From: a virus
Direction: 5' to 3' (one strand)
IMG/VR virus record: IMGVR_UViG_3300017917_003732
Span: 1-64,000 of that record
DNA length: 64,000 bases
Shown: piece after piece, positions 4,703-33,404 of the stretch
Numbering within the stretch: position 1 is the first letter of the stretch
Layout: each line of letters begins with the position of its first letter
Notes under the pieces: generated by a model
The model's database searches: none
Told to the model about the DNA's origin: nothing
What the model saw: only the letters and a program-made list of their open reading frames with translations
Position numbers and translations under genes: made by a program

Positions 4703-5122
4703 ATGAAGGCTCACACGGTTTGCCCTCGGTGCCTAGGAAACGGTTATCTTGGTCAGTACAGCCATGTACAAGATGGGATATGCTTTCGCTGCAAAGGATC
4801 TGGAGAGATCCAAGTTCAGATCAATTTTTGGGAAAGAAGTATCCAAGTAGGAGCACAGACTATCCCGATAGAACCCTACCAGAGGATGAACCGAAAAGAG
4901 TTGGTGCAGGAAGCCGCTCAAATTCTGAACGGCCCGCCATCGCAATGCAACCAGGCAAGGTCTATTGCGATCCTAGGTCTCGTACTAGGCCTGGCCGACC
5001 TTAAGGTACGTGACCGAGGCCTGGCCGCCTTTGATACCCGGTGCGAAGTCCCAGAAGACCGGAACACCCTCAGAGCACTTGTGGCTAAGGTTTCCTCGTT
5101 GCGCAAGCAAAAGGCTGCTTAG
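4703..5122 (+). CDS. DnaJ-type half zinc finger protein, 139 aa
   Basis: The N-terminus holds two CxxCxGxG-like repeats, C7-x2-C10-LGNG and C27-x2-C30-KGSG, the pattern of one zinc centre of the DnaJ cysteine-rich domain; there is no J domain. The remainder is helical and of unknown function. First gene of the plus-strand island, divergent from the DUF1848-family gene, with only about 64 bases between the two starts. A clear ribosome binding site is not visible. Similar stand-alone zinc modules are common in phage genomes; partner and role are unknown. Confidence 0.6.
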   Translation: MKAHTVCPRCLGNGYLGQYSHVQDGICFRCKGSGEIQVQINFWERSIQVGAQTIPIEPYQRMNRKELVQEAAQILNGPPSQCNQARSIAILGLVLGLADLKVRDRGLAAFDTRCEVPEDRNTLRALVAKVSSLRKQKAA

Positions 5123-5126
5123 CTCC

Positions 5127-5136
5127 GGTGTAGCTT
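5127..5136 (+). promoter_or_regulatory. GGTG-TAnnnT element, candidate leaderless promoter
   Basis: GGTG TAGCTT on the plus strand, five bases before the ATG of the MazG-like gene. This is the only plus-strand copy of the start-proximal set, and it has the same geometry as the minus-strand copies. Confidence 0.5.
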
Positions 5137-5141
5137 CGCAC

Positions 5142-5714
5142 ATGCTAACTGACTCGGTAACCGAACTCTCCAAGATTTCTAACCAAATAGCCCACGAAAA
5201 AGGATGGTGGGACACACCTAGGTCCAAAGCGGCCATCAGTCTTTTAGTACAGACTGAAATATCTGAAATAATAGAAGAGTACAGAAAAAATCACGAAGTG
5301 AATGAGGTCTGGTACGAAAAAACCTACTCTAAGGAGGGGGTTGAGTATACTACCGTAGGAGAGAAAGGCGATAAACCATGTGGAATTCCCATCGAATTGG
5401 CCGATGTGGTGATTCGGATTGCAGATTACTCCGCTGAACAGGGGTACGATCTGGACCAGGCTTTAGGGCGATTGCCCGCACTAGAGAACTATGATTCACT
5501 AGAAGAGTACTTAGTCCGAATAAGCTGGGCCATCTCTATGGCGTGGAACGCGGACTCACATGGGGTCCTAACTGAGGACTTTTTCCTAGCTATAGCCATC
5601 AGGTATGCGTTTCGATTAGCTTATGACTTCAACATCGATATATGGAGCGCGATTGCCGAAAAAACCGGCTACAACCAAAGAAGGCCCTACCGGCATGGAA
5701 ATAAGCGAATCTGA
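5142..5714 (+). CDS. MazG-like nucleotide pyrophosphohydrolase
   Basis: 190 aa. The first hundred residues match the all-alpha MazG/NTP-PPase pattern: HEKGWWD (19-24), E39-x2-E42 and EE45-46 within TEISEIIEEYR, and E85-x2-D88 in IELADVVIRI. The ExxE...ExxD carboxylates bind Mg2+ in this superfamily, which hydrolyses (d)NTPs to NMP and pyrophosphate. Phage members are thought to shape nucleotide pools or lower the host alarmone level. The residues between the two helix pairs (WYEKTYSKEGVEYTTVG) are a beta-hairpin-like insertion. The C-terminal 70 residues are helical. The start is ATG 5142; earlier in-frame codons fall inside the preceding gene. The end overlaps the RNase HII gene by 20 bases. 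Confidence 0.8.
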   Translation: MLTDSVTELSKISNQIAHEKGWWDTPRSKAAISLLVQTEISEIIEEYRKNHEVNEVWYEKTYSKEGVEYTTVGEKGDKPCGIPIELADVVIRIADYSAEQGYDLDQALGRLPALENYDSLEEYLVRISWAISMAWNADSHGVLTEDFFLAIAIRYAFRLAYDFNIDIWSAIAEKTGYNQRRPYRHGNKRI

Positions 5715-6381
5715 TACTTGTCGGGACGACAGGGAAAAGTACGAAAAGCTTCGCCTAACCTGCCCATATGTCATCGGAGCGGACGAATGCGGATTTGGGA
5801 CATGGGCAGGGCCTCTTGTCGTCTGTGCTGTGGGCGTTCGAACCAATTGGGTTCCGCCACTTGGGGTAGACGACTCAAAAAAGGTGAGGCCAAAAAAACG
5901 TGAGGCCTTATTTGAGCTACTTTCACCCAAAATCACACATGCAATAGAGCTAGCCCATGCGGACGAAATCGACCGGGATGGTGTCATGTCCGCACTTCAC
6001 AGGTGCTACCTCGCCACGATTACAAGGGTCCAAGAGAAGTACCCAGACGCTTTTGTTGTCATCGATGGTACCGTCAAAATCCATGACCTCAATCATCTTC
6101 GTTTCCCGAAAGCGGACGGAATAGTTCCGGCTGTTTCCACCGCGAGCATTTTAGGTAAGGTCACCCACGATCGTTATATGTGGAAATTGGCCGAACAATA
6201 TCCTGGGTACGGCCTCTACAAGCATCAAGGCTACGGGACCGCAGAACACAGAGCAGCCATCGCCAGACTCGGCATGACCCCCATTCATCGAAAAAGTTAT
6301 GTCCCGGTACTCAAGGAAGATCGATACAAGGAAGCAGAAGGAATCAGCTTAGACTCGGAGGGTCCAATCAAGTCCTTGTAG
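5695..6381 (+). CDS. rnhB: ribonuclease HII
   Basis: 228 aa, close to the normal length. All family landmarks are present: IGADECGFGTWAGP with D30/E31 as the first two catalytic carboxylates, DDSKKVRPKKRE, VVIDGT (third Asp), KAD...VSTASILGKVTHDRYM (fourth Asp and the Lys helix), and YPGYGLYKHQGYGT with PIHRKSY near the end. The enzyme cleaves the RNA strand of RNA-DNA hybrids and single ribonucleotides in DNA; here it probably removes replication primers, complementing the phage polymerase. ATG 5695 is preceded by AGAAGG; an upstream in-frame start would overlap the MazG-like gene by 92 bases. Confidence 0.92.
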   Translation: MEISESDTCRDDREKYEKLRLTCPYVIGADECGFGTWAGPLVVCAVGVRTNWVPPLGVDDSKKVRPKKREALFELLSPKITHAIELAHADEIDRDGVMSALHRCYLATITRVQEKYPDAFVVIDGTVKIHDLNHLRFPKADGIVPAVSTASILGKVTHDRYMWKLAEQYPGYGLYKHQGYGTAEHRAAIARLGMTPIHRKSYVPVLKEDRYKEAEGISLDSEGPIKSL

Positions 6382-7038: not shown

Positions 7039-7707
7039 TCAGACCCTATGCTTTTTGTCCCAAAGGCGCTCAGCCATGAGCATTAACTTCTTCATGTCAT
7101 CAAGACTTCGGTACTTGCGCTCTAACTCAACTTCCCCATAGCTCCCCTCATAATCGGCACCCTGCGAAAAGTGAATCCTCGCCTCTTGGGGTCTGTTAAG
7201 TTGCAGGGCCTCCCGAACGTTCTCGAAATCGACTGTCATTTGTGCATCATCGTATTTGTCAGAATTTCGATAAGAAGCGACAGCAGAACCAAAATCCTCG
7301 CTGAAGTCTACTTCCCACTTTGCGTTCTGGAGGCTCTTGACCTGAACTTCCAAGTCCTTCGCGGCTTCTCGAGAGGCTTTCGCAATCTCACCCTCTATTT
7401 GCTTTAGAATACGCTCCACATCGTGTGGATCTTTCCAGTCACCACGAATAGGCTTGTTCGCAATCTCACCTTCGTACTGTCCTGGAGGTCCATCACCCTT
7501 AAACCAAAAGTAAATGGAGGCCGGGATGAGAAGGTCATACTGCCCTTCGTAAGAGTACTCGACTTTATAGGCATCTTGGAATACGTCGAGTTTTTCTGGC
7601 GTCAGCCTAAAGTTTCGGACTTCCGGCCAGCTTTCACTATGCGTCATCGGAAGGCCTATACTGGCCTGAAATCTACGAACAACTCTTGATACTATAGACA
7701 GGTTCAT
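7039..7707 (-). CDS. hypothetical protein, 222 aa
   Basis: No family recognised. The N-terminus (LSIVSRVVRRFQAS) is a short amphipathic basic helix like those of other proteins here; the remainder is mixed alpha/beta with a Lys/Glu-rich helix in the middle (ERILKQIEGEIAKASREAAKDL). A strong ribosome binding site, AAGGAG, sits eight bases before the ATG. The 35-base gap upstream separates it from clpX. Confidence 0.58.
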   Translation of the reverse strand: MNLSIVSRVVRRFQASIGLPMTHSESWPEVRNFRLTPEKLDVFQDAYKVEYSYEGQYDLLIPASIYFWFKGDGPPGQYEGEIANKPIRGDWKDPHDVERILKQIEGEIAKASREAAKDLEVQVKSLQNAKWEVDFSEDFGSAVASYRNSDKYDDAQMTVDFENVREALQLNRPQEARIHFSQGADYEGSYGEVELERKYRSLDDMKKLMLMAERLWDKKHRV

Positions 7708-7742: not shown

Positions 7743-9005
7743 TCAGGCTTCGGCTTTTTGCTGCCCCCGAAGGGTGATAACGCCCTGGCCTCCCTGCACG
7801 GTCTCTTCAGTCACAAGGATGCGCTCAATATCAGCATTACTCGGGGAATCGTACGCAAAAGTCTTCAACGTCTTCTCTACGATACTCCTGAGAGCACGAG
7901 CGCCTGTGGGGCGTTTTTTAGCCTCTCTAGCGATAGCCCGGAGGGCTTCTTCCGTGAAATCTAGCACGATATGATCCATCCGAAATAAGCTCTTGACCTG
8001 CTTGACAATGCTGTTTTTAGGCTCCGTAAGAACCTGAACCATTTCGTCTTCGCTTAGCTCGACTGTCGTGGTGAGGACCGGAAGTCTTCCCATCATTTCC
8101 GGAATTACTCCAAATTCCATAATGTCGTCTTCGGTAGCCTCAAGATATGAAGTCGAAGTATCCAGCTTACGTTTTTCTGAGGAGGCGCCGAAGCCAAGAC
8201 GAACAGCCCCTTTGTTTAAGCGGCTCTCAACTATGGGCTCGATTCCAGAAAAGGACCCCGCGCAAATGAACAAAATGTTCGCAGTATCGATGGTATCGTA
8301 AGCGGTCATCATTCCCGCCTTACCGCCACGAGGGACATTAACCTTGGACCCCTCCAAAAGTTTTAGTAGGGCTTGTTGAACCCCCTCACCCGAAACGTCT
8401 CGATATCCAGCGCGTTCGCGTCCAGACCCACGAGCGATCTTGTCCACCTCGTCCAAAAAAATAATCCCCCATTGCGCCCGCTCGATATCCCCGCCTGCAT
8501 CCAGGATGAGCCCCTGAAGTAGGGTTTCCACGTCATCTCCCACATACCCGGCCTGAGTCAGTCGGGTAGCATCCCCGACGTGAAACGGGACCTGAAGCAT
8601 CCTTGCAATGGTCCTGGCTAAGTGGGTCTTGCCAGTGCCTGATGGACCGAGAAGCAAAATATTGCTCTTTTCGATTTCGACCCGCTCTGAACCGTCCTCA
8701 ATCTTGGTAGTCCGAAGCTGCCGTCGTTTGAAGTGGTTGTAGACTGCAATGGAAATGTCCACTTTGGCTTGATCCTGACCGATCACGAATTGGTCTAGGT
8801 AAGCCCGAATTTCCCGAGGTTTCCTCAGGGGCTCCTCTTTGGGTACCTCAAATCCTCCCCTTTTTGCCCCGGCTTTAATCTCACTTGCAGCCGTATCGAC
8901 GCACCTGTTGCAGATAAATGGCCCATCTTCCGGATGGGCTGCGATTATATTCTTGACTTCGTTGCGCGGACGTCCACAAAAAGAACACCTAATCGGGTTG
9001 GGCAT
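7743..9005 (-). CDS. clpX: ATP-dependent unfoldase ClpX (phage-encoded)
   Basis: 420 aa, full length for ClpX. Seen in order: zinc-binding domain with C7, C10, C32, C35; Walker A GPSGTGKT (120-127); pore-1 loop GYVG (153-156); Walker B IIFLDEVDK (181-189); GRLPV; sensor-2 region GARALRS. The ClpP-docking tripeptide is LGF (270-272) rather than the IGF of E. coli, a conservative change. The RKH loop that lines the E. coli entry pore is absent: after VNVP the phage has RGGKAGMMTAYDT. ClpX unfolds substrates and feeds ClpP; no clpP is in the window, so use of host ClpP or independent unfoldase activity is inferred. The ATG has no Shine-Dalgarno sequence but lies five bases after GGTG-TAAGAT. Confidence 0.95.
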   Translation of the reverse strand: MPNPIRCSFCGRPRNEVKNIIAAHPEDGPFICNRCVDTAASEIKAGAKRGGFEVPKEEPLRKPREIRAYLDQFVIGQDQAKVDISIAVYNHFKRRQLRTTKIEDGSERVEIEKSNILLLGPSGTGKTHLARTIARMLQVPFHVGDATRLTQAGYVGDDVETLLQGLILDAGGDIERAQWGIIFLDEVDKIARGSGRERAGYRDVSGEGVQQALLKLLEGSKVNVPRGGKAGMMTAYDTIDTANILFICAGSFSGIEPIVESRLNKGAVRLGFGASSEKRKLDTSTSYLEATEDDIMEFGVIPEMMGRLPVLTTTVELSEDEMVQVLTEPKNSIVKQVKSLFRMDHIVLDFTEEALRAIAREAKKRPTGARALRSIVEKTLKTFAYDSPSNADIERILVTEETVQGGQGVITLRGQQKAEA

Positions 9006-9116: not shown

Positions 9117-9374
9117 TTAGAACCGAAATCTCTTCATCATCTCACGAAGTTGGTTGGTTGCAGCACGAGCGTCGCCGATCTTGTCCAGGGCCTTCATGCA
9201 CTGACGGTAAAGGGGCTGTAGGTCCGCCGGGATCGCTTCCATCTTGTCAAGGCCGAACTTGAACGAGTGTAGAGCCAAGTAGGCTTTGACAACTGCCTCA
9301 TCTGCCTCAGCGGGCTTACCTACTACCTGACTAAAATCCATCGCCGTCTTAGTGCGTTCATAGTCGTAACTCAT
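9117..9374 (-). CDS. hypothetical helical protein, 85 aa
   Basis: Predicted all-helical (EAVVKAYLALHSFKFGLDKM; KALDKIGDARAATNQLREMMKRF). The start is set at ATG 9374, five bases after GAGGTG; the GTG two codons earlier forms part of that ribosome binding site and of the upstream gene's end. It directly follows the nitrilase gene (two bases between stop and ATG), so the two are probably co-translated. No family recognised. Confidence 0.55.
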   Translation of the reverse strand: MSYDYERTKTAMDFSQVVGKPAEADEAVVKAYLALHSFKFGLDKMEAIPADLQPLYRQCMKALDKIGDARAATNQLREMMKRFRF

Positions 9375-9376
9375 TT

Positions 9377-10132
9377 TCACACCTCAGCGTATACGATACA
9401 ATCTTGACTCCAAACCAAGCCCTCACACAGGACAGCACCCTCTTGAGTGATAACACAGACCCCACCCTCACCGAAGTCATTGGGACCCTCTTGCCCGTAA
9501 CGGTTCGAGACGATGAGTCCAGTCCGGTTCTCGGACACAAAGTCCATCCAAGAGACTGCTGGGAACCCTCCGTCGCCCCAATTTGTGGATAAACACACTA
9601 TATCTGCATCACCGGGGGAATAAAATTCTCGCCATTTGTCATCACGCTTATCCCGGACATCACGACAAATAAGCATGCCAATACGAGGACCAAACTGACT
9701 GTGAATCACTGGTGGGTTGGAAATCCCAGGCTTACACCAGAGAAAATCCGAACCCCATCGATTGACTTTCGCATAAGACGCATAAAACCCACTAGGTTCT
9801 ATATATAACTGGGAATTATGAAGTTGCTTCGTGCCCAAATCGATTTCTACGTAACCAAATACTATGGCAATTTCGAGCTTTTGGCAAAGAGAGTAGAAAA
9901 CTGCCATCGAGGAACTTGGATGCTTTCTGGGGTCCTCGAGCCAGGTGTAGCTCTCAGCAAGTAGGGACGCCTCCCGAGAGGACATGAAGCTATATCCTGT
10001 AGTGCATAGCTCGGGCAACACTACAAGTTTAGCCCCGTTTTGTGCCGCCTCCATAACCAGCCGAGCTAGCCTCTGAAGATTCCCTAATTTATCCTTGAAA
10101 GTTGGACAAAACTGAACGGTTGCAACTCGCAT
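9377..10132 (-). CDS. nitrilase-superfamily carbon-nitrogen hydrolase
   Basis: 251 aa, one complete nitrilase domain. The catalytic triad is intact: E41 in LPELCTTGY, K122 in YAKVNRW, C156 in LICRDVRD. Members cleave C-N bonds of amides or carbamoyl groups (for example N-carbamoylputrescine, omega-amides, or glutamine as the glutaminase part of NAD synthetase). The substrate cannot be read from the sequence; the stand-alone domain and length fit small amidases better than NAD synthetase, which would carry a second domain. GGGAG lies seven bases before the ATG. An uncommon phage gene, lying between an unknown zinc-motif protein and a small helical protein. Confidence 0.82.
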   Translation of the reverse strand: MRVATVQFCPTFKDKLGNLQRLARLVMEAAQNGAKLVVLPELCTTGYSFMSSREASLLAESYTWLEDPRKHPSSSMAVFYSLCQKLEIAIVFGYVEIDLGTKQLHNSQLYIEPSGFYASYAKVNRWGSDFLWCKPGISNPPVIHSQFGPRIGMLICRDVRDKRDDKWREFYSPGDADIVCLSTNWGDGGFPAVSWMDFVSENRTGLIVSNRYGQEGPNDFGEGGVCVITQEGAVLCEGLVWSQDCIVYAEV

Positions 10133-12025: not shown

Positions 12026-12370
12026 CTACTCGAACTGGGACTTCCAATGAGGGTCCCCAGGACCTCGGTAGATTTGATGCTCTTTGGAGGCGGTTAAAAG
12101 AGTACTAACAGGAACTTTGCCGATACGACCCTTTAGCTTGGCTGACCCATCGGGGAAAATGACAGCCCTTCCAGACAAAGACAACTCGACCAAAATCTTG
12201 GAGGGGTCTTCGAGTATGCGAAACCTCTGAAATTCAAACGCACCTACCGTTACCCGGTCCAAACACTCGATTTTTTTGAATGTACAACCAACAGAAAAAG
12301 CAGCCCTAACTACCTCTCCGGTCACTTTTCGCGAAGTATCGCCAAAGGTTTCAACTGCAAAGTACTTCAT
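12026..12370 (-). CDS. hypothetical protein, 114 aa
   Basis: Beta-rich sequence (KILVELSLSGRAVIFPDGSAKLKG) without a recognised family. Its ATG overlaps the DHFR stop (ATGA), so it is translated with the nucleotide-metabolism genes; whether it acts with them is unknown. Confidence 0.5.
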   Translation of the reverse strand: MKYFAVETFGDTSRKVTGEVVRAAFSVGCTFKKIECLDRVTVGAFEFQRFRILEDPSKILVELSLSGRAVIFPDGSAKLKGRIGKVPVSTLLTASKEHQIYRGPGDPHWKSQFE

Positions 12371-12912
12371 AGGCGCTGATACTTACAGTGAGTCAGGGTA
12401 GAGTCTACCGGGTTCGTCACACTCTCGACAATCTCAAACATCCCATCAAAATTATAGGTGAACGACCTGAAGTGCAGTACATTCTTCTGCCCGGTGGGGG
12501 TTACCCAATCTTTCACAAGTGTGAGATCGATTTCGCCTACAAGAGGCACAGCGAGTTCATAAACTTCGGCCCCTCCAATGACCCACACGTCCTTCCCGGA
12601 CCAGGTTAACCCCTCCCCCGACCCGTTCACCCAAGTACTGTCGTTTGCTATCTCAATAGCCTGCTCCAACGAGTTGGCAGTCTTCACGTCAGGTTGTGTG
12701 GTCCGGCTAAGAACTACGGTTCTCCTTCCAGGGAGAAATCTTCTCCCCATCGACTCCCATGTCTTTCTCCCCATGATTAGGGTACCGCCCATCGTTGTCT
12801 TTTTGAATCGTTTCATGTCCTCAGACTTACGCCATGGGATTTGACCACTTACCGCTATCACACCCTCAGGATTGACAGCAACAATCAGTTTAGGTGAAGA
12901 ATTACTCAGCAT
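12367..12912 (-). CDS. folA: dihydrofolate reductase
   Basis: 181 aa, slightly longer than chromosomal DHFR (about 160). Visible family features: IVAVNPEGVIAVSGQIPW (N-terminal strand and Trp27), the active-site acid D32 in KSEDMKRFKK, MGRKTWESMG, VVLSR, and VIGGAEVY, the NADPH-binding Gly-Gly turn. It reduces dihydrofolate to tetrahydrofolate with NADPH, regenerating the cofactor oxidised by the adjacent thymidylate synthase. AAGGAG lies ten bases before the ATG. It follows thyA by 20 bases and overlaps the next gene by four, so thyA-folA form an operon. Confidence 0.93.
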   Translation of the reverse strand: MLSNSSPKLIVAVNPEGVIAVSGQIPWRKSEDMKRFKKTTMGGTLIMGRKTWESMGRRFLPGRRTVVLSRTTQPDVKTANSLEQAIEIANDSTWVNGSGEGLTWSGKDVWVIGGAEVYELAVPLVGEIDLTLVKDWVTPTGQKNVLHFRSFTYNFDGMFEIVESVTNPVDSTLTHCKYQRL

Positions 12913-12932
12913 CTAATAGGCTCCTTAGGAAG

Positions 12933-14120
12933 TTATACCGCCACTTTGAACGGAATGTTTGGGTGCGGATCATAACCCTGAAGAATAAAGTGGCTCATAA
13001 CTTCATCGGTCGTAACTTTGGGGTCCATCAAAGCCTCTATATCCTTTAGGTCTTTGATGGCTGGATCAATGATTAGCTCGGGGAGCTTTCGGGTCTCCCG
13101 TTGGACCTGTTGCCGAAGACCAGGGACATGATCAAACTCATTCTTAGTCCCATCGGGTTTGGCTGTGTAAATGTGCGCATCAATAAGAGTGTGTCCGAAT
13201 AGCCCAACTTCGATCCCACTCATGTGAGCAAAGAGGTGGAGTAAAAAGGAGTACCCGGCTAGGTTATAGGGTACCCCAAGGGCGACGTCCGCACTCCTTT
13301 GAGTCAAGTGGAGACAGAGCTTTTTGACGGCTTTTTTGGGCATATCCCCACGAATCTTGCGGAATTCCTCCTCCAAGTACTTAATGGGTCTCCTAACCTC
13401 CAAGGCTTCGACGGTTGACCCATCAGGCATCTCCTCTGGCTGGGGTCCGTATTTCATTAGAGCCTTCTCATAGGCTTCAGTCTCAGATTTAGCCCAGACC
13501 ACCCCGAGGCGCTCCGTTCCGCAATGGCAGGAAGCCACTGCCTCCCAGGGATCCTTTCCGTAGTCAGACTCTTCCACCTGAACGTTGAAGACGAACATAC
13601 AGTGACAGGGCGGGAGCTTCGAGTTCTGTGCATTCCCAGGCGCCCAAGCAGAGACTACCAGTCGTCGGCTCATAGGGTTTTGACGAAGCTCCTCCAAAAC
13701 CCAACGAATCTGGTCATTAAACACGCCTAGCTTCACCGGAATTAACTTCTCGTCACCTCCGTACACCCCAGTCAATTCATCTCTAAGATGTGCTAGATTC
13801 GTATCTGCATGGATCGGGAAGTGCCTCCAGAAGTTTCCGTAAGCGCTTGGGACTTTTCCGTTTTCATCCGCCCAGGGGTCCCAAAATCTACAATTATGCC
13901 GCCTGAGAATGGAAATATCTGTTTGCCCCGACAAAAACCACAGGGTTTCAATAACAATGTTTTTCCACGAAATAGCCTTCGTGGTGAGGAGTGGGAAACC
14001 CTCTCTTAGGTCGTGCTCGTAATAATAGCCAAAAGTGGAGAGGGTATCAACCCCAGTCCTATTCTCTTTTCGCGTTCCCGTCTCAAGTACGTGCCTTACC
14101 AATTCAAGATACTGTATCAT
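12933..14120 (-). CDS. thyA: thymidylate synthase with a roughly 85-residue insertion after the catalytic loop
   Basis: 395 aa against about 264 for E. coli ThyA. Core motifs: ENRTGVDTLSTFG, FPLLTTK, WFLSGQTDI, the dUMP-phosphate Arg in RRLVVSAW, catalytic C172 in LPPCHCMF, QRSADVALGVPYNLA (275-288) and DAHIY. In other ThyA proteins about ten residues separate PPCH..FQFYV from QRSAD; here about 90 do (roughly 183-270), including SCHCGTERLG and a helical basic stretch. A smaller insertion follows FWRHFP. The reading frame is continuous, so this is peptide rather than an intron. It makes dTMP from dUMP and methylene-tetrahydrofolate. GAGAGG precedes the ATG. Confidence 0.94.
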   Translation of the reverse strand: MIQYLELVRHVLETGTRKENRTGVDTLSTFGYYYEHDLREGFPLLTTKAISWKNIVIETLWFLSGQTDISILRRHNCRFWDPWADENGKVPSAYGNFWRHFPIHADTNLAHLRDELTGVYGGDEKLIPVKLGVFNDQIRWVLEELRQNPMSRRLVVSAWAPGNAQNSKLPPCHCMFVFNVQVEESDYGKDPWEAVASCHCGTERLGVVWAKSETEAYEKALMKYGPQPEEMPDGSTVEALEVRRPIKYLEEEFRKIRGDMPKKAVKKLCLHLTQRSADVALGVPYNLAGYSFLLHLFAHMSGIEVGLFGHTLIDAHIYTAKPDGTKNEFDHVPGLRQQVQRETRKLPELIIDPAIKDLKDIEALMDPKVTTDEVMSHFILQGYDPHPNIPFKVAV

Positions 14121-14199
14121 ACAGGGCCCTCTCGATTAAAACGGGTGGGAATCTCGGTTTGATTTACGGAGAATACCCCCGGAAAGTTATCAATTGACA

Positions 14200-14745
14200 T
14201 TAGGAGACCCTCTCCAGAACTTGATCCCAAGAAAAGACCCTAAGATGGTCGAGCCCAAGGGTTCTGGTATTAGGGGTGTGCCAGAGCATCGAACACTTAT
14301 CTGGGTTCTCCGCAGCCCAGGAAGAGACATAATTCGGGTTATCGTCTAAGAAGTAATCACCTCGGACTAGGTACTTAGCCGATGTGTAGATGATCTGTCC
14401 TCGAGAAAAACCAAAGTCCCTTTTCAGACTATTGCTTCTTTCATATACCCATGAAGGACTAGGGTACGGATTGGTGACCGCAATTACTTCAGCGTGCCTT
14501 CTGATTTGATCAAGAGCTACTACTGCTTCGGGGAACGGTCGAAGAGCGGAGCAGAATCCAGGCGCATTCATGTACTCAAAGACTTGAGTCCTCTCCTCCT
14601 CACCGAGAACAGAAAAGAGATCCCAAACCTTGATTTCTTCGATTTGATGCCGACGCCCAGTCACTTTCGCCATTAAGGCTAAGACTGGATCATGTAGGTC
14701 ATACAAAACTTCGTCAACATCCACCAAAAAATAGGGCTTTAGCAT
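14200..14745 (-). CDS. HAD-family 5'-nucleotidase (NT5C/deoxyribonucleotidase-like)
   Basis: 181 aa. HAD motifs are all present: nucleophile and acid D9 and D11 in FLVDVDEVL, T91 in AVTNPY (motif II), K124 in SAKYL (motif III), and D134/D135 in YFLDDNP (motif IV). The small helical cap and length match the 5'(3')-deoxyribonucleotidase group common in phages, which dephosphorylates (d)NMPs. Next to thymidylate synthase and DHFR it probably adjusts nucleotide pools, perhaps by removing dUMP or host nucleotides; substrate is inferred. The ATG has no Shine-Dalgarno sequence and lies five bases after GGTG-TACTAT. Confidence 0.8.
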   Translation of the reverse strand: MLKPYFLVDVDEVLYDLHDPVLALMAKVTGRRHQIEEIKVWDLFSVLGEEERTQVFEYMNAPGFCSALRPFPEAVVALDQIRRHAEVIAVTNPYPSPSWVYERSNSLKRDFGFSRGQIIYTSAKYLVRGDYFLDDNPNYVSSWAAENPDKCSMLWHTPNTRTLGLDHLRVFSWDQVLERVS

Positions 14746-31535: not shown

Positions 31536-32095
31536 TTCTCACCATACTTTCTTAAAAGGGTGTCAATCTCTTGGGTAGGAATACCTGAGCTATCCTTAAC
31601 TGTGACCACTACCACGCTAGGCGTTACTACGATGACCTGATCAACATCCCTATTGGTCACCCCATCCGGAAGGATCACTTCTGTTGGTTTATCTTCCCCA
31701 GGGGGTGTGAAAACAACAGTTTTGGGGTTAGAGAATAATCCGGGCTCTCGAATAGGCACCACTACTGCCTGAGTATCACCCTTGGAGTCCGGCTGCCCAA
31801 TAGGGATAATCCTTCCGTTCTTGTCTACTCTATTCGGATCCACCGAATTGGAGATATCGATAGTTTTTCTCCCATCCGATTTTCTCCCAAGAAGCTTGCT
31901 GAGAAGGCCCCCAACCTGAAGCTCCTTGAACCCCATCGAAACCAATAAAACGGCGCCGAGAACTACCACCAAGGCGAAGATAAGCTTCAGGACATCAGGA
32001 GTTGCCCAACAAAGGAAGCCCCATAGCCTGGACACGGTCGCCTTGCAGGCTTCCCATGCTCGCTTACCACAGGACTTACCGAAAAGATCAGGCAT
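31532..32095 (-). CDS. single-pass membrane protein, 187 aa
   Basis: One hydrophobic segment at about residues 35-56 (LKLIFALVVVLGAVLLVSMG), preceded by a short N-terminal part and followed by a 130-residue soluble, beta-rich domain. This topology is compatible with a spanin-like or virion membrane protein, but no lipobox or proline-rich region is evident. The start is ATG 32095, with AGGA seven bases upstream and an eight-base overlap with the J-domain gene; an ATG at 32131 is less likely. Near two other membrane or exported genes, hence a possible lysis region. Confidence 0.55.
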   Translation of the reverse strand: MPDLFGKSCGKRAWEACKATVSRLWGFLCWATPDVLKLIFALVVVLGAVLLVSMGFKELQVGGLLSKLLGRKSDGRKTIDISNSVDPNRVDKNGRIIPIGQPDSKGDTQAVVVPIREPGLFSNPKTVVFTPPGEDKPTEVILPDGVTNRDVDQVIVVTPSVVVVTVKDSSGIPTQEIDTLLRKYGEN

Positions 32096-33404
32096 GAATC
32101 GTCCTAAATAAGTCGTACATTGACATTCCAAGAACCTCAGCCGCTTGCCTTAAAGTCATTTCGGAAGCAACAGACAAGAGACTCGATGTCTTCGACTCAG
32201 GAAGGTACTCCTCAGCAGCCTTTTCCAAAGCAAGATGAAGCCATGAAGGTTCAGAGGTTAGGCAGTCAGTCAGATGAGTGATTGCCGTAGCGGCATCAAA
32301 CTTGAGGCTAAAACCCCCCCGACTCCCTCGAAGACGGCTGAGATTAAAGGGACGACCTTCGGATATCTCCCAATTCATGACATAGGGGATGAAAGATTTC
32401 TTGAGATTCTCCACTGTAGCATCTGTCAATTGACAGTCCTTACCGTTCACTCGAACGAAAAATTCGTATGAGTCGGCATTATCCATTCTCTTTTTCTCCG
32501 CCTTCATACGACTAATCTTCTCACGACTATACTTTGTATAAACCTCAACCACACTCTTTCGTCCGACTACCGAAGGGTCCTCGTCGTTGAGAAGACCACA
32601 TCCAACAAGGATGTCCTTTAGCGCCGCCCCTCCAGAGCGAGGAATTTTTTTAATGACCTCTTCCGTGGGTCGGTCCCATTGCCAAGCAACAAACTTCTTG
32701 GCGGGTTTAGGGGTTGCCCCGTCAGCCCATTGAGTCCCAATTAGCTTGATGTATTTAGTAGCAATCTTGGCAACGTTCTGAGACAAGGGGGCATCAACCC
32801 AAGAAACTTGCCAATCCTCCATGACCTTGGTACGCTGCCCCATGTCAGTCGGGATTGTCCCCCCACTCTCACCTCTCTCCTTGATAGCAAGGAATATGTG
32901 CTTTGATTCGGTACGACCATAAAGAGTCCAAACTCGATGCCCAGGATAGTAAGATTTTTCCCAATACCACTCAGGAATCGATACGAATTTCCACTCAACC
33001 CCTGAGGGGGGTGTATTTGAGGACCAAGCTTTCGAAAAGTTTTGACCCTCCATAACCGAATCTGGCCCAGTCGGAGGCTTTTGACGACTCCACTCGTAAT
33101 TCTTGTCCTGAGGGCGACCAGGTTCGTTAGTCGGCCGACTCTTTCCTGTTAGGATATCCTTTGCTACGTTTACCTCCACCATCTTCGCAGGGTCACCGCC
33201 CCGATCGGGATGGTTTTCAAATGCCTTGCTGCGATAAGCCTTCATGATCTCTTCCGGACTCGGGGAAGAAAGGGGAGGAAATCCCAAGACCTGCTTGGCT
33301 TGCTCCATCGACATCGCAAGCAAAAGACGCGCGTACCGAGCTTCGAATTCGACTTGAGCGTATCGATTCGCTATTTTGTTGATTAGTGTCAAATCAGTGT
33401 GCAC
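32088..33404 (-). CDS. J-domain (DnaJ-like) protein, 438 aa
   Basis: Residues about 33-87 form a J domain: MEQAKQVLGFPP, PEEIMKAYRSKAFENHPDRGGD with the essential HPD at 65-67, and VEVNVAKDILTG. The first 30 residues include LINKIANRYAQ, a tag-like helix. No Gly/Phe region or zinc domain follows; the remaining 340 residues are unknown, with a terminal helical segment (LRQAAEVLGMSMYDLFRTI). J domains stimulate Hsp70 ATPase, so this protein probably redirects host DnaK, perhaps for assembly of the very large tail proteins. GTG start with GAGGA five bases upstream. Confidence 0.75.
   Translation of the reverse strand: MHTDLTLINKIANRYAQVEFEARYARLLLAMSMEQAKQVLGFPPLSSPSPEEIMKAYRSKAFENHPDRGGDPAKMVEVNVAKDILTGKSRPTNEPGRPQDKNYEWSRQKPPTGPDSVMEGQNFSKAWSSNTPPSGVEWKFVSIPEWYWEKSYYPGHRVWTLYGRTESKHIFLAIKERGESGGTIPTDMGQRTKVMEDWQVSWVDAPLSQNVAKIATKYIKLIGTQWADGATPKPAKKFVAWQWDRPTEEVIKKIPRSGGAALKDILVGCGLLNDEDPSVVGRKSVVEVYTKYSREKISRMKAEKKRMDNADSYEFFVRVNGKDCQLTDATVENLKKSFIPYVMNWEISEGRPFNLSRLRGSRGGFSLKFDAATAITHLTDCLTSEPSWLHLALEKAAEEYLPESKTSSLLSVASEMTLRQAAEVLGMSMYDLFRTIHA

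Follow-up and report, generated by a model that had tools for sequence, protein, structure and literature searches.

The window analysed here is a stretch of 64,000 nucleotides that forms part of an 86,995-base IMG/VR virus record. Its minus strand carries at 7743-9005 an intact reading frame, which begins with ATG and encodes 420 amino acids followed by a stop, and which is a complete phage ClpX gene. A search of PDB sequences matches the protein to ClpX over its full length (best E-value of 6e-109, residues 5-408), and Pfam recognizes the zf-C4_ClpX, AAA_2 and ClpB_D2-small domains in it. An earlier note, made from the sequence alone, had claimed a full-length phage ClpX at this place, and this is borne out. 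The AlphaFold2 model of the protein, built with 38 sequences, has pLDDT of 89 and pTM of 0.83. The structure search with this model gives ClpX structures at the top, for example 6vfs_E of N. meningitidis with Z of 38.0 and rmsd of 2.5 over 333 aligned residues; the bacterial ClpX rows of the structure alignment are 44-48% identical to the window protein.

With ClpX of E. coli K-12 (L117) as the motif reference, the alignment places all the elements of the motor in the window protein. The four cysteines of the N-terminal zinc-binding domain (residues 5-41, 8883..8993, minus strand; 43 bits to Pfam zf-C4_ClpX), the Walker A motif GPSGTGKT (residues 120-127, 8625..8648, minus strand), the unchanged pore-1 loop AGYVG (residues 152-156, 8538..8552, minus strand), the Walker B motif FLDE (residues 183-186, 8448..8459, minus strand), the arginine finger R307 and the sensor-2 arginine R370 are present. 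The zinc domain, the Walker motifs and the GYVG loop are hence kept, as had been stated earlier.

Two of the loops that in E. coli ClpX contact the ssrA tag are different. The window protein has no RKH: the stretch opposite 20 residues of the E. coli protein reads NVPRGGKAGMMTAYDTIDT, and the replacement itself, RGGKAGMMTAYDT (residues 226-238, 8292..8330, minus strand), forms in the AlphaFold2 model the tip of a hairpin between the predicted strands 221-225 and 236-240. The pore-2 loop is remodelled to SGRERAGYRDV (residues 194-204, 8394..8426, minus strand). Here RAGYRDV stands opposite PSITRDV of E. coli, with Thr199 replaced by Tyr, Ile198 replaced by Gly and one residue added; the loop 196-202 is the only stretch of the model with pLDDT below 50. 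The putative ClpP-docking loop LGFGASS (residues 270-276, 8178..8198, minus strand) has LGF in place of the IGF of E. coli, so that the G-F pair is kept, with Leu at position 268 and Ser at position 274 of the E. coli numbering.

The earlier note had called phage-encoded ClpX uncommon. This stands for deposited phages, where 297 of 50,697 records match and 60 are covered to at least 80%, at least one of the fetched matches being a bacterial contig. It does not stand for huge phages, since a relative is encoded in at least 584 of the 600 IMG/VR stretches examined. Scans of IMG/VR found 30 contigs of up to 529 kb, the window included, that carry one group of ClpX among the matches listed. The other members of this clade are 50-72% identical to the window protein; three pairs are identical, which leaves 27 distinct proteins (24 from the first 27 members and 3 from the later ones). 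In a tree of 78 rows the 23 clade rows are monophyletic with support of 100/100, and their stem measures 1.18 changes per column. For the later members L187, L189 and L190, which are off the tree, the assignment to the clade rests on motif and identity. The ClpX subfamily is found only in phage contigs among the matches listed. The deposited record CAKLQH020000005.1 (L127), labelled as an Acinetobacter phage, contains tig-clpP-clpX and therefore looks like a stretch of bacterial chromosome.

The catalytic and pore-1 residues are intact across the clade. The Cys4 zinc domain is found in 26 of 27 aligned clade rows, and the exception, L004, has Cys4 upstream of its own intein. Judged by eye, an intein interrupts Walker A at one and the same site in the clade ClpX genes L004:6561-8891 and L190:546-2930, and the ClpX of Lak-A2 (L126:2953-5166) has one at Walker B. 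Ten clade pairs were tried for dN/dS, of which three are identical and two have saturated synonymous sites; the five measurable pairs give 0.022, 0.086, 0.032, 0.09 and 0.115. This range of 0.02-0.12 is that of purifying selection, and thus the clade genes are functional.

Alignment with bacterial and phage ClpX proteins confirms the loss of RKH, which the earlier note had described, and adds to it the change of pore-2, a second ssrA-contact element that the note did not mention and that is replaced throughout the clade. RKH is present in 0/30 clade members, and exact RKH is present in 81/82 bacterial ClpX. These 82 proteins are the best 80 of 591 together with E. coli and the Acinetobacter contig deposited as phage, and the sample is thus biased towards ClpX similar to the query. 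Thr199 is likewise absent from all 30 clade members (Tyr in 25, Phe in 3, Met in 2), whereas the bacterial proteins have Thr199 in 82/82, Arg228 in 82/82 and His230 in 81/82. From the ssrA-contact residues Thr199, Val202, Arg228 and His230 the clade keeps only Val202, which is Ile in one member. The new pore-2 motif is itself strongly conserved, with Gly198 in 22/22 and Arg200 in 21/22 counted rows, and hence looks refitted rather than decayed. The segment that replaces RKH is variable, with 18-30 residues over positions 221-240 versus 20 in 81/82 bacteria; where E. coli has Pro224, an arginine recurs in 18/22 clade rows. Pore-2 and RKH were replaced once, in the ancestor of the subfamily, and stayed so. 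Since the RKH motif has been described as conserved across the ClpX family (PMC7112952), we file the clade as a variant ClpX subfamily; it is a well-delimited variant of a known machine. Both the sequence facts and the descent of clade ClpX we regard as nearly certain. A literature search combining ClpX, bacteriophage and RKH gave no paper on a phage ClpX by title; few subscription papers were covered, so the subfamily may already be reported.

What these replacements would do can be judged from mutants of the same residues. In the recognition complex of E. coli ClpX, as described in PMC7652416, the ssrA end is held by Tyr153 and Val154 of pore-1, Thr199 and Val202 of pore-2, and Arg228 and His230 of the RKH loop. 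The same source reports that KM for ssrA substrates rises at least 50-fold in Y153A, V154F and R228A, and that human ClpX, which has Leu at both 199 and 230, gives no degradation of ssrA substrates. Once RKH is replaced by AAA, an ssrA substrate is reportedly no longer degraded by ClpP (PMC7112951). Given these data, it is unlikely that the phage ClpX recognizes ssrA tags in the way of its E. coli counterpart. We consider the loss of host-type ssrA reading in clade ClpX probable, and by analogy with the same mutants its substrate choice would be redirected.

The docking tripeptide had been called conserved. LGF is real and Gly269-Phe270 is invariant in 30/30 members, but residues 268 and 274 and the length of the loop differ from bacteria. 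Ile268 is found in 3/30 clade members versus 50/82 bacteria. A hydrophobic residue at 274 is found in 4/30 versus 70/82 bacteria and 57/78 other phage ClpX. The distance from the docking motif to the next landmark is 24 residues in 25/30 clade members and 26 or 27 in 67/82 bacteria, that is about two residues shorter in the clade. In E. coli ClpX the substitutions I268L, F270L and V274A are reported to cause severe defects of ClpP binding, and changes of loop length to lower the affinity for ClpP (PMC7112951). With these differences, the conservation of IGF is no proof of ClpP docking. Leu268 occurs naturally in 12/82 bacteria, and thus the change at 268 need not matter by itself. Gly271 is commoner in the clade (29/30) than in bacteria (50/82), so that the loop seems to be constrained, but differently. 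We read this as a docking loop adapted anew, either to one particular ClpP or to some other partner. Given the changes at 268, 274 and in length together with the defects of the E. coli mutants, it is only plausible that clade ClpX plugs into the host ClpP.

The earlier note had raised the case of a host ClpX with the same loop, which would make the gene simply host-derived. Among the matches listed from 84,980 species genomes, the closest bacterial ClpX shares 50% identity with the window protein. A degenerate DNA pattern of the phage pore-2 motif is found in 0/12, 0/377 and 0/398 bacterial genomes (sets dominated by two phyla), whereas the host-type pore-2 pattern occurs in 382 genomes of the last set. 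On these matches and genome sets, recent acquisition of clpX from a host is rejected, and an ordinary host gene captured recently from a bacterium that shares the loop is hardly credible.

Partner genes are scarce in the clade records, which are fragments, so the absences of ClpP, SmpB and tmRNA in them are weak. A ClpP-like gene is found in 4/30 (0/1 for the window record and 0/4, 4/22 and 0/3 for the other groups searched), namely in L155, L156, L157 and G008. The four proteins are divergent members of S14 that score 75-95 bits; in 8 of 9 named phage records searched, with LR756511 as the exception, the best ClpP match scores 202-268 bits. PHROGs labels the divergent proteins as head maturation or ATP-dependent proteases, and a profile made of them retrieves no further ClpP-like genes over 29 records. 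In L155, L156 and L157 the gene adjoins an apparent metallophosphoesterase gene, as judged by eye. On these counts we reject the idea that the phages generally encode their own ClpP partner. With no ClpP-like gene in 26/30 records, any protease partner would have to be that of the host. The window's 86,995-base record has no match to ClpP (PF00574) and no Rfam match at gathering scores.

SmpB is found in 0/27 clade records, and tmRNA scores above the Rfam cut-off in 8/27. A laxer search adds two, G007 with 78.8 bits and G008, whose tag reads the same, which gives about 10/27; in 17/27, the window's own record included, tmRNA is not found. Both of the added tmRNAs (L149:709-1236 of G007 and L150 of G008) contain an insert and have a length of about 530 nt, and their tag frame reads ANDNFAASPALAA, followed by several codons without a stop. 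The tags read by ARAGORN end in -AA in 7/8 and in -VA in 1/8. Since the tags keep the -AA ends, the simple explanation by an orthogonal ssrA tag of the phage is unsupported. The presence of tmRNA and SmpB in huge phages has already been reported (PMC7162821). No tRNA is found within the 64-kb window; the phage most closely related to that of the window has 41 tRNA genes within a stretch of 18 kb (L151, G001:188000-206000).

The neighbourhood of clpX is conserved over the 23 loci compared. A carbon-nitrogen hydrolase gene (PF00795; 9377..10132, minus strand) lies upstream of clpX in the window, with a small reading frame at 9117-9380 between them. Further upstream, within the same neighbourhood, are the genes of DHFR, thymidylate synthase (ThyA) and the NT5C nucleotidase (12367..14745, minus strand). 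The carbon-nitrogen hydrolase family and the DUF1848 family are found in 19/23 loci each, and DHFR, ThyA and NT5C are upstream of clpX in several. ClpX is scored in 18/23, because the simple picker of reading frames chose antisense frames in some loci. The genes of a MazG-like pyrophosphatase and RNase HII, which share about 90 bases, lie at 5010-6381 on the plus strand and run against the genes around them. A protein with a J-domain-like stretch, judged by eye, is encoded at 32088-33404 (minus strand), and its relative directly follows clpX in L001 (9329-10684). An N-terminal motif like [RK]VVAR[FY] occurs near clpX in different families (7039-7707 in the window; L001:9329-10684; L009:9938-10639; L030:7267-7845). 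Among 433 reading frames it stands 17 times in the first 40 residues versus 17 times elsewhere, and it is rare genome-wide, with 6 cases in 422 reading frames of G000 and G001. That this motif is a degron for clade ClpX is speculation.

We tentatively propose, at somewhat less than an even chance, that the phage ClpX is an active unfoldase, taken off host-style ssrA reading, which feeds phage-chosen substrates to the host ClpP via the refitted docking loop. The unchanged Walker motifs, arginine finger, sensor 2 and GYVG translocation loop would make it an active AAA+ unfoldase, presumably assembled as its own hexamer. Host-type ssrA tags would no longer be read efficiently, as mutants of the same residues suggest, and different substrates, chosen by the phage, may be pulled into the host ClpP. 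The protein would act in the phase when the surrounding nucleotide-metabolism genes are used. Against this proposal stand the docking loop, altered in the same respects as in the E. coli mutants with defective ClpP binding, and the tmRNA of about 10/27 records with mostly -AA tags, which is odd if the phage shuns such tags. The same loop changes count for a rival reading, in which the unfoldase works independently of ClpP and remodels phage or host complexes, in replication, virion assembly or host regulators, with no degradation, the loop being kept for another partner or for the structure. The lack of a ClpP-like gene in 26/30 records and the nucleotide-metabolism neighbours of clpX fit this, and related roles have been proposed: a translocase or assembly aid in a review on jumbo phages (PMC7824862) and DNA replication in a paper on a Sinorhizobium jumbo phage (PMC11242549). 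However, G269-F270 is invariant in the clade and Gly271 is more conserved than in bacteria, and most bacteria supply a host ClpP, so that its absence from the phage alone is uninformative. We regard the ClpP-independent role as possible but rather unlikely, and lean modestly towards phage ClpX working with the host ClpP rather than alone.

The tmRNA genes would find another meaning if they wrote tags that the new loops of phage ClpX read, with SmpB and ClpP provided by the host. The tmRNA of 8/27 records and the two found by laxer search, the absence of SmpB from 27 records and of ClpP-like genes from all but 4/30, and the pore-2 motif conserved clade-wide are consistent with such a pair. Still, seven of eight tags end in -AA as host tags do, 17/27 records, among them that of the window, have no detected tmRNA, and phages outside the clade with bacterial-type ClpX (phage G, Lak) have tmRNA too, which makes the pair improbable. 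The protein might also serve as a decoy or a poison, which occupies ClpP or mixes into hexamers of host ClpX and thus blunts the host ClpXP. Its identity of 44-48% to bacterial ClpX might permit mixed rings and its ssrA-reading parts are lost; a decoy, however, would not need the ATPase and pore-1 residues, which are all kept under purifying selection, and we think this role very improbable. Our preferred reading is that of the redirected unfoldase that uses the host ClpP.

Which loops of ClpX set its specificity is known from mutagenesis of the E. coli protein. In the phage lineage, evolution has exchanged pore-2, RKH and a portion of the docking loop jointly, in a single event, and kept the motor. 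The roughly 27 distinct natural ClpX proteins of the clade can be used to explore which other signals ClpX is able to recognize, whether ClpP still docks when the loop is altered, and by what means huge phages gain control of proteolysis in the host. The shared rebuilding suggests that ClpX of these very large phages directs destruction or remodelling towards other proteins. It is a long shot that huge phages possess a private degron code, bringing only the two components that set specificity, a tmRNA writer and a rebuilt ClpX reader of tags or substrates, and borrowing the generic SmpB and ClpP of the host; if it were true, phage-directed proteolysis would run in the same cell beside the host ClpXP and partly separate from it.

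Last, we compare the clade with known ClpX systems. It shares with bacterial ClpX (E. coli K-12; N. meningitidis 6vfs) the domain order, the zinc domain, the Walker motifs, GYVG, the arginine finger, sensor 2, the docking G-F and the fold. Unlike bacterial ClpX, it has RKH and Thr199 replaced, pore-2 longer by one residue and the docking loop changed at 268, at 274 and in length. Bacillus phage G (gp258), Lak-B2 and LR756511 also encode full-length phage ClpX, but keep RKH and ITRDV, and in phage G clpP adjoins clpX. Exact RKH together with Thr199 is found in 55/78 ClpX of phages or viral contigs outside the clade (5/12 and 50/66), short contigs among which may be bacterial. ClpX of PA5oct, SCTP-2 and LR756504 are likewise without RKH and the pore-2 Thr, but lie outside the clade on long branches of the tree; each of these records has a strong ClpP match (202-261 bits), and in PA5oct and SCTP-2 ClpS is annotated near clpX. 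A few further IMG/VR contigs lack RKH and Thr199 and are outside the clade by identity, and similar changes thus arose more than once. Human mitochondrial ClpX is changed at 199 and 230, and PMC7652416 reports no degradation of ssrA substrates by it. Its RKL, however, keeps Arg and Lys (PMC7112952), whereas in the phage clade the entire segment is replaced.
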